Source of the DNA: Phycisphaeraceae bacterium
GTDB lineage: Bacteria; Planctomycetota; Phycisphaerae; Phycisphaerales; UBA1924
DNA length: 64,000 nucleotides
NCBI GenBank assembly: GCA_007693965.1
Contig: RECQ01000057.1
Location: forward strand, 1 to 64,000
Direction of reading: 5' to 3'
This document shows, piece by piece, positions 23,570-53,665 of the stretch (position 1 is the stretch's first letter; every line of letters starts with the position of its first letter). The position numbers were made by a program, and so were the translations under genes. The notes beneath the pieces were generated by a model. It made no database searches. It saw only the letters and a program-made list of their open reading frames with translations, and was not told where the DNA came from.

Positions 23570-23601
23570 GAGACGCCGAGGCTGAGTCCTCGAAGCCTGG
23601 G
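23570..23601 (+). repeat. REP-like hairpin element, copy 1 (imperfect)
   Basis: GAGACG followed by CCGAGGCT, a 10-nt loop and AGCCTGGG. The right arm differs by one base from the perfect AGCCTCGG. Forward orientation, in the spacer between the RAYT-like gene and the PAC2 gene. The spacer 23433-23701 holds nothing else recognised. Confidence 0.85.
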
Positions 23602-23654
23602 AAAACCGCCCGAAACACCATGACCACACAATCACACACAAGCGATCACCGAAC

Positions 23655-23686
23655 CAGACGCCGAGGCTGAGTCCTCGAAGCCTCGG
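23655..23686 (+). repeat. REP-like hairpin element, copy 2
   Basis: CAGACG, then CCGAGGCT, a 10-nt loop and AGCCTCGG. The arms pair over 8 bp. Forward orientation, ending 15 bp past the 3' end of the RAYT-like gene. Confidence 0.88.
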
Positions 23687-23701
23687 AAGAAACGTCCGTA
23701 C

Positions 23702-24268
23702 TCAAGATGGTGGACCAGCCTCACCATCGCTCAGACCCACCAGCCCCATGCGCGCCAGCCCCTCAGACCATTCCCACACCCACGCCCCCCGTGTCCGATG
23801 CTTGCGGATATACGAAACCGTCGCGCTCATATGACCAAGGTTGCGTATCCGCACCGCATGGCTGGAAGCGCCCCACAGCTTGCCGGGGAAGTCTTTTCGC
23901 ATCCTGTGCGAGGAAAACTGCTTTGCGCGCCCGAACACCCGAACCGCGTCGATGCCTCCCGCCCGGATCAACGCATGGACATGCGATTCATCCACGGCGA
24001 GAATGGCGCAGGGAATCTTCATCATCGCCAGTTTTTCAAGCACAGCCCGTCCCAGCGACTCGCGCTGCTCGCGCCCGAGCGACACGGCGGGCGCAGCCAG
24101 GCGCCGGGCCCGATCGAGCAGCTCCCGATGCTCACCCGGCGCAGGCGGAGATCGATAGTCACCCGACGAGTGAACACGATGCCCATGATCACGAAACCCC
24201 CGAGGATCTCCGGGCAACCACTGCCCCCGAAAAGAAGACATGACGTGAGCCCACGGCCTGTTCGCCAT
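23702..24268 (-). CDS. RAYT-like (REP-associated tyrosine) transposase
   Basis: A 188-residue protein. 'AVDESHVHALIRAG' gives an HxH pair (His96, His98) at the end of a beta strand. 'FGRAKQFSSHRM' and a downstream 'VSYIRKHRTRGAWVWEW' supply a candidate nucleophilic Tyr153. HUH followed by a single Tyr is the layout of Y1/IS200-type transposases and the RAYT subfamily. The N-terminal 'FRGQWLPGDPRGFRDHGH' is shared with transposase-like planctomycete proteins (inference). Four copies of a 26-nt hairpin repeat flank the gene, two per side, as expected for RAYTs mobilising REPs. ATG 24268 is chosen because upstream in-frame codons run through repeat copy 3. It could instead be a related nuclease without transposition activity. 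Confidence 0.65.
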   Translation of the reverse strand: MANRPWAHVMSSFRGQWLPGDPRGFRDHGHRVHSSGDYRSPPAPGEHRELLDRARRLAAPAVSLGREQRESLGRAVLEKLAMMKIPCAILAVDESHVHALIRAGGIDAVRVFGRAKQFSSHRMRKDFPGKLWGASSHAVRIRNLGHMSATVSYIRKHRTRGAWVWEWSEGLARMGLVGLSDGEAGPPS

Positions 24269-24367
24269 GGGCCATATCCTGCTCAACGGCTCGAACAACG
24301 TCAAGCGGATCACACCCGCATCACAATCCCCCTGACCAGCCCCGGCTCCGGCATTCACACACCCCAA

Positions 24368-24399
24368 GAGACGCCGAGGCTGAGTCCTCGAAGCCTCGG
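24368..24399 (+). repeat. REP-like hairpin element, copy 3
   Basis: GAGACG, CCGAGGCT, a 10-nt loop and AGCCTCGG, identical in the 26-nt core to copy 2. It lies 100 bp upstream of the RAYT-like gene start. Confidence 0.88.
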
Positions 24400-24523
24400 G
24401 TAGTGCTCCCATGACTTCAGTGACTGCATCGCAGACGACAGCCGCCGCCACAGCGTGACGAAGGGGTGTCATTGAACTCTTCTATGATCAATTTCTGATG
24501 TCTGCTTGCAGTGGACGGCGAAC

Positions 24524-24555
24524 CCGAGGCTTCGAGGACTCAGCCTCGGCGTCTC
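24524..24555 (-). repeat. REP-like hairpin element, copy 4
   Basis: Same 26-nt core in reverse orientation (CCGAGGCT, loop, AGCCTCGG then CGTCTC). It sits between the RAYT-like gene and mccB. Copies 3 and 4 thus form a facing pair about 125 bp apart. The 24269-24621 spacer has no other recognised feature. Confidence 0.88.
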
Positions 24556-49193: not shown

Positions 49194-49225
49194 GAGACGC
49201 CGAGGCTGAGTCCCCGAAGCCTCGG
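49194..49225 (+). repeat. REP-like hairpin element, copy 5
   Basis: GAGACG, CCGAGGCT, a 10-nt loop with one substitution, and AGCCTCGG. Lies in the 314-bp divergent region between the PilZ gene and ispG. The rest of that region is low-complexity C-rich DNA with no certain promoter. Confidence 0.85.
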
Positions 49226-52735: not shown

Positions 52736-53665
52736 ATGCGAAACACACACGACATCACCATCAACGGCGCCCCGCCCCGTCCCGCTCCAACCCCCGCGGC
52801 GGGCGCTGCCGCGAACAACGGCCGCCATCACGGCGCCGCCCCCGCGCCCCAGCCTCCTCCACATCTGCCATCGAAGCCCGCCGAATACAGCAAACCCACG
52901 CCCCTGCAGTTGCTGATCTTCGATCTCATCCTCGCCGAGCGCGACCCGCTCGAAATGGCCCTCGAACGCGGCCTCTCGCTGGCCCAGCTTCTCGAAGTCA
53001 TCGAGTCCGATGAAGTCCAGCGCGAGCTCGAGGCCTTCGAGCGCATCGCCGAAGTCCAGCTCCGCACGACGATCATCCGCGCCCGCCCCCAGGCCGCTGC
53101 GGTGCTCCTGAATATCGCCGTCATCTCCGACAAGCACGAAACCGCCCGCAAAGCCGCCGCCTCCCTCTTCCGTGCATCCAGGCGCCCGGCGCCAACCGAC
53201 ACCGACCCGCCCGCGCCGCCACCGAGCGATCCCACGCCCACCCCGCGCCCGAGCCGGCCCCGCTCTGAACCACAGACAACAGCGCCCGCGCACACCCCGC
53301 CCCTCCGCCTCATCCGCACGCCGGATACGCAGGAACATCAACCGGCGCCGGTCGCCGAAAAAAGCCACGCGCAGCCCCACGCGCAATCGCGCGCACAGCC
53401 CCGCGAACAGACCGAGGCTTCGAAGACTCACCCTCGGCGTCTCGCCCCGAGCGCCGCCCCCCGTGGCCCTCCCCAAAACCACATCACTCCCGCGCAGCAA
53501 AGCGCATCGGTCCCATCCGTCCCATCCGTCCCATCAGTCCCAGCGACACCGACAAAACCGCCCGCCACTACCCCGCGCCCCACTCCTAAAACTCCGCATT
53601 CTTCGGCGTCCTCGGAAACGGAATCACATCGCGGATATTCCCCATCCCCGTCGCGAACTGGATGA
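52736..53665 (+). CDS. Hypothetical protein with helical core and repeat-derived proline-rich tail
   Basis: 309 residues. Residues ~50-145 form a plausible helical domain: '[20 protein letters not shown]', '[20 protein letters not shown]', then '[20 protein letters not shown]'. It could bind nucleic acid but no family is recognised. From ~150 onward it is Pro/Ser/Thr/Ala-rich. This tail is encoded partly by REP copy 6 and a nonamer array that reads (VPS) repeats. The open frame ends 80 nt inside the opposite-strand asnS gene, so the true end may be eroded. ATG 52736 is the first start before the domain. Confidence 0.6.
53412..53443 (-). repeat. REP-like hairpin element, copy 6 (diverged, in coding sequence)
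   Basis: Reverse orientation with several substitutions: CCGAGGCT, loop, ACCCTCGG, then CGTCTC. Lies in the proline-rich tail region of the hypothetical gene. Confidence 0.75.
53511..53546. repeat. TCCCATCCG nonamer tract 2
   Basis: Four 9-nt units: TCCCATCCG twice, TCCCATCAG, TCCCAGCGA. In the hypothetical protein frame they read Val-Pro-Ser repeats. Confidence 0.8.

Follow-up and report, generated by a model that had tools for sequence, protein, structure and literature searches.

A single-copy RAYT-like HuH nuclease gene flanked by a genome-wide hairpin repeat in a planctomycete: a probable new subclass of the TnpA-Y1 superfamily

The stretch of planctomycete DNA analysed here, 64,000 nucleotides in full length (the window), very probably carries a REPtron: a single-copy Y1/HuH nuclease-ligase gene that is specific for about 100 intergenic hairpins (REP1) and has copies of them on both flanks, and whose planctomycete family makes up a new subclass next to class 3 in the TnpA-Y1 superfamily. 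RAYT-kind enzymes, which cut single-stranded DNA, are thought to spread such hairpins in bacteria. This reading is built on what was observed of the hairpin (its copy number and intergenic placement), of the protein (its predicted fold and conserved catalytic residues) and of the two together (their linkage and co-variation).

Gene and flanking hairpins in the window

REP1 has the structure GAGACG-CCGAGGCT-GAGTCCTCGA-AGCCTCGG, in which CCGAGGCT and AGCCTCGG are the arms, the loop has 10 nt and GACG is a 5' extension. The gene and the REP1 copies of the window are the following:

23570..23601, + strand: REP1 copy 1, with one mismatch in the 3' arm (CCTGGG)
23655..23686, + strand: REP1 copy 2, about 15 nt 3' of the stop of the RAYT-like gene
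23702..24268, - strand: RAYT-like HuH/Y1 gene of 188 codons (H96, H98, W132, Y153, H157)
24368..24399, + strand: REP1 copy 3, about 100 nt 5' of the start codon, in an inverted pair with copy 4
24524..24555, - strand: REP1 copy 4, in an inverted pair with copy 3
49195..49225, + strand: further REP1 copy, intergenic, with loop GAGTCCCCGA
53412..53442, - strand: further REP1 copy, with one stem mismatch

Copies 1 and 2 are both located 3' of the gene in the same orientation, and copies 3 and 4 form an inverted pair 5' of it with a separation of 124 nt. The initial annotation had described four hairpin copies around the gene, and the arms, 10-nt loop and extension that it gave were all verified. 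The translated ORF of 188 residues also shows the two motifs it had named, an HxH with His96 and His98 (HVH at 96-98, in an SHVH context) and Tyr153 in VSYIRKH. Its placement of the gene between two leucine-degradation segments holds only loosely, because it is directly adjoined by a PAC2-family gene and a carboxyl-transferase gene. No tnpB was found among these neighbours, and the genome contains only one copy of the close-family gene.

REP1 across the genome

The genome of the window (G000) has 3.48 Mb in 74 contigs. It contains 69 REP1 copies with exact arms and 75 copies within three mismatches of AGACGCCGAGGCTGAGTCNTCGAAGCCTCGG, and the reversed-pattern control gives no match; the copy number is therefore far beyond chance. 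A looser pattern, which fixes nothing but the foot, the bases that close the loop and the GG at the end, gives 103 matches, which include the long-loop form AGACGCCGAGGCTGAGGAGTCTTCGACGAAGCCTCGG and among which a few overlapping readings are possibly counted twice. As single-stranded DNA, REP1 folds into an 8-bp stem (-9.1 kcal/mol, z -2.1), and the GACG foot is present in nearly all copies sampled. When genes were predicted with a simple caller based on codon usage, 76 of the 77 REP1 copies sampled lay between genes, whereas 76% of random positions fell inside predicted genes; the gaps that contain REP1 are mostly convergent and co-directional. The genome-wide hairpin count by which the initial annotation had proposed to check its reading thus came out in its favour, with dozens of copies, nearly all of those sampled being intergenic. 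Many copies have unrelated flanks. Several short-loop copies oppose a long-loop copy, inverted and 17-105 nt away, in pairs that resemble the mosaic dimers of E. coli. REP1 and a spacer also recur in tandem arrays, with a 57-bp period at C25:56107-56479 (L070) and a 133-bp period at C66:4183-4612 (L086).

Fold, profile scores and catalytic residues of the protein

Taken alone, the window protein falls under both profile cut-offs: it scores 20.6 bits against Pfam Y1_Tnp (cut-off 23) and 12.8 bits against NCBIfam REP_Tyr_transpos (NF047646; RAYT cut-off 80). Two family members scored individually against NF047646 gave 17.7 and 25.9 bits. Among 24 family members, REP_Tyr_transpos matches 19 at E <= 0.01 (best 3e-9), Y1_Tnp matches 12 (best 2e-9) and the IS200 model matches two. 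The AlphaFold2 model of the window protein (pLDDT 87.9, pTM 0.81) is closest in the PDB to 4er8, a complex of the E. coli RAYT (TnpA-REP) with a REP hairpin (E 2.5e-4, probability 1.0), followed by the ISDra2 and IS608 TnpA proteins; 4er8 likewise ranked first in the search with the family profile. Every one of 81 proteins has H96, H98 and W132, and none of the 80 sequences that extend over position 153 lacks the tyrosine. The comparison with Y1_Tnp and RAYT profiles, which the initial annotation had also proposed, accordingly gave a Y1/HuH protein with HxH and Tyr invariant. Four residues after the tyrosine, 65 of 80 sequences show His, 10 show Gln, three show Lys and none shows Asn, and in the family-profile alignment this His lies where 4er8 has Asn. 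The third metal ligand is Asn119 in E. coli TnpA-REP and Gln131 in IS608 (PMC6006769). An N-terminal WLPGDPRG is also conserved, partly imposed by the scan pattern, and was left out of the evidence. By hhalign, the family profile matches class-3-like proteins at 99.2% over 149 columns, and on this profile comparison the class-3-like Y1 proteins are the nearest relatives.

In the relatives sample of 61 genomes, which counts that of the window, 31 genomes have homologues (0-6 in each genome), and those inside one genome are divergent and not recent copies. With class-3-like relatives counted as well, the figure for the phylum is 131 of the 392 genomes sampled. The species-level genome collection contains 145 homologue loci, and the best 80 of these 145 are planctomycete by title, except for a few odd titles. 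Three contigs carrying a family gene are titled Cyanobacteria (L104), Nealsonbacteria (L106) and Vicinamibacteraceae (L117), and these titles are probably mislabelled.

Linkage of gene and hairpin and the common hairpin pattern

Of 79 homologue genes, 65 have the same repeat upstream and downstream, against three of 120 mixed upstream/downstream pairs. The stem sequences vary between genomes and their likeness increases with protein identity (Mantel r 0.33, 0 of 5000 permutations): stem identity is 79% for pairs with more than 50% protein identity and 40% for pairs below. The ACGCC-type hairpin is commoner in genomes with a close homologue (8/14 versus 3/47, p = 1e-4). In many homologues the hairpin shows a foot nA(C/A)G, a stem beginning with CC, and GA...GA mismatches closing the loop. 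When all perfect hairpins in the neighbourhood of the genes were listed independently of this motif, GA...GA loops ranked first (28 of 63 loci, versus three in control regions), and the commonest feet were GACG, GAAG, AACG and CAAG. With such loop ends, the stem is topped by two G-A mismatches in a row, which can be likened to the bulge of mismatched bases required by E. coli TnpA-REP (PMC8266576). When pattern matches were taken with no complementarity requirement, 4.0-5.0 of the five free stem positions were paired in hairpin-rich genomes and 1-2 of five in most others, and the free positions show compensatory variants.

Three genomes (G008, G011 and G030) contain 40-161 hairpins of the same grammar each and no family gene: the profile search gave only distant Y1 genes in two of them and none in the third, and in the loci read the Y1 genes are not flanked by a same-grammar hairpin. 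In these genomes the family gene may be lost or may be absent from the assemblies, so that the hairpins are either orphan REPs or the mark of missing sequence. In G434, the genome of locus L108, the pattern of an AAGCCGG hairpin matches about 195 times, in many cases as inverted doublets with a fixed start-to-start spacing of 57 nt, a constant arrangement like that of REPINs. This genome has several family genes, and among the loci inspected the AAGCCGG hairpins flank only the one at C47:30617.

Guide bases and candidate cleavage site

By a published rule, the guide bases choose the dinucleotide that is cut (PMC8266576). Applied to GACG, this rule predicts CG, which matches the signal found in de-duplicated REP1 copies: CG lies at +7/+8 on the 3' side in 47% of the short-loop copies (45 in all) and in 69% of the long-loop ones (16 in all), versus roughly 10-15% for most of the other positions of the 3' flank. 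For the AAG-foot hairpins of G434 the 3' flank shows no enrichment of the predicted CT, and extension of the rule to these REPs was rejected. Since that prediction failed, the reading of CG at +7 as guide-directed is treated only as a lead.

Signs of movement and a second system in the same genome

Three homologue genes contain their flanking hairpin in frame, at the same point of the protein:

L032:1454-1482, in frame: in-gene REP hairpin encoding KPTLDERGL
L038:1456-1485, in frame: in-gene REP hairpin encoding KPTLSKRGT
L039:1463-1494, in frame: in-gene REP hairpin encoding SPGMAIPGL

Similar in-gene REP insertions have been described for subclass 2.4 (PMC6006769), and REPs in frame inside homologue genes point to insertion events. 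The genome of the window also contains a second gene of this kind with its own hairpin, REP2 (GAGC-CGGGGCG-TCC-CGCCCCG), on its flanks:

C25:3560-4117 (L201:360-917): second Y1/HuH gene, 185 aa, Pfam Y1_Tnp 26.6 bits

REP2 has about 38-40 copies in the genome, several of them in inverted pairs 24-28 nt apart, and some pairs enclose REP1. REP1 thus lies within REP2-bounded composites, which are themselves repeated, and one genome shows two such systems with interleaved repeats. One REP2-bounded composite occurs with (C59, L083) and without (C68, L205) a REP1-bearing insert of about 97 nt; because the insert exceeds the size of the hairpin and the direction is ambiguous, gain and loss are both possible, and the pair was set aside as proof of REP1 insertion.

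Proposed mechanism and alternative explanations

By analogy with TnpA-REP, the enzyme would bind the folded single-stranded REP1 and recognise its 5' foot GACG together with the irregular stem, with the GA...GA mismatches below the loop. The cut next to the hairpin would be made through Tyr153, with a phosphotyrosine intermediate and with the metal held by His96, His98 and probably His157. The strand would then be rejoined elsewhere, so that binding, cleavage, re-joining and mobility together would spread REP1 in trans. A wider reading, which we consider possible but rather doubtful, is that of a phylum-wide undescribed subclass of HuH nucleases with His as third metal ligand, a non-GTAG guide nA(C/A)G and hairpins marked by tandem G-A mismatches, in which, for REP1, GACG would select the CG cleavage dinucleotide seven bases 3'.

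The fold and the HuH-Tyr core would also suit an ordinary insertion sequence of the IS200/IS605 type, bounded on the left and right by the hairpins and moving as one unit with its gene, and the window does show hairpins on both sides of the gene with no other gene between. Such an element is very unlikely here: about 100 hairpins stand against one gene copy, the homologues of one genome are divergent, IS200 models match few members and the immediate neighbours examined show no tnpB. A reading of the hairpins as transcription terminators or stabilisers of mRNA, with the gene next to them by chance, is hardly credible, even if REP1 is intergenic and often located 3' of genes or between convergent genes. 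REP1 was rejected as a terminator, since it has no T-tract, and as a known RNA family, since nothing came near the Rfam cut-off; it also has a conserved unpaired 5' foot, and the repeat that flanks most homologues varies with the protein. REP1 may have a terminator-like or mRNA-stabilising role secondarily.

The protein might instead be domesticated for another task and only use or regulate the hairpins, REP1 having spread by recombination, slippage or hitch-hiking in REP2-bounded composites. The tandem arrays of 57- and 133-bp period, the presence of REP1 inside the repeated composites and the persistence of hairpins in gene-less genomes agree with this. It is nevertheless unlikely, given the unrelated flanks of many REP1 copies, the insertion events implied by the in-frame REPs of homologue genes and the invariant catalytic residues. 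A nuclease that spreads REP1 in trans is the reading preferred here, although the hairpin-rich genomes with no family gene, the sub-cut-off scores of the window protein on its own and the failed CT prediction in G434 speak against it.

Comparison with known systems

The window system shares with the RAYT/TnpA-REP of E. coli (subclass 2.2, 4ER8; GTAG REPs) the HuH fold with a single Tyr in a Y1 domain, a gene flanked by its own, genome-wide REP family, and many intergenic REPs with an irregular stem, found as inverted dimers with long- and short-loop partners. It differs in five features: the foot is GACG (nAAG in relatives) instead of GTAG (GTRG); the motif is YIxxH (YIRKH in the window) instead of YIxxNP, with its Asn as third metal ligand; WG/WA replaces WE/WQ; a conserved N-terminal segment WLPGDPRG...HxxHSSGDY is present; and the window protein is below the NCBIfam cut-off, the level of at least 80 bits against NF047646. 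The IS200/IS605 TnpA proteins (IS608, ISDra2) have the same catalytic fold and recognise a hairpin with a 5' tetranucleotide guide, as the window protein would by inference, whereas here the gene is single, with one close copy and no set of near-identical gene-bearing copies, the hairpins are dispersed without the gene, and most members show His and not Gln at Tyr+4. GACG is the reverse complement of CGTC, and CGTC-tagged REPs also have 8-bp stems (Di Nocera et al. 2013, PMC3733652). These REPs have stems starting with AT, loops of 4-5 nt, CCA tails and no associated transposase (PMC3733652), whereas REP1 has a stem starting with CC and copies on either side of a transposase gene; with tag polarity left aside, identity with the CGTC REPs was rejected because stem, loop and tail differ. 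Class 3 TnpA-Y1 proteins are likewise present in Planctomycetes, have similar length and share an N-terminal TxGTWLxGD motif with the system described here, and are characterised by NHVH, Y----Q and a foot CnGA (PMC6006769); the window system shows SHVH (the residue before the first catalytic His varies in the family), YIxxH and a foot nA(C/A)G.

The window protein thus works like a RAYT and is outside the published subclasses 2.1-2.8, since it has no GTAG, no YIxxNP and a score below the cut-off, and outside class 3, since it has no Y----Q and no CnGA foot. As it fits none of the published classes and its profile is linked to class-3-like proteins, a new subclass of the TnpA-Y1/REP kind is the best reading. 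The initial annotation was right in proposing a distinct REP system, with GACG and not GTAG as its tag; its remark that proteobacteria are the main known source of RAYTs leaves out the GTAG REPs of Rhodopirellula (PMC3733652) and the class 3 TnpA-Y1 genes of Planctomycetes (PMC6006769), both reported before, and the phylum itself is therefore not new ground. What is added is the extension of RAYT/REP systems to a large planctomycete family with another guide tag and another metal-ligand residue, and dozens of natural enzyme-hairpin pairs with co-varying stems, which make the evolution of REP recognition and of cleavage-site choice directly testable. As a whole the family, whose hairpins follow a code of their own, seems to form a branch of a known system that has so far gone undescribed.
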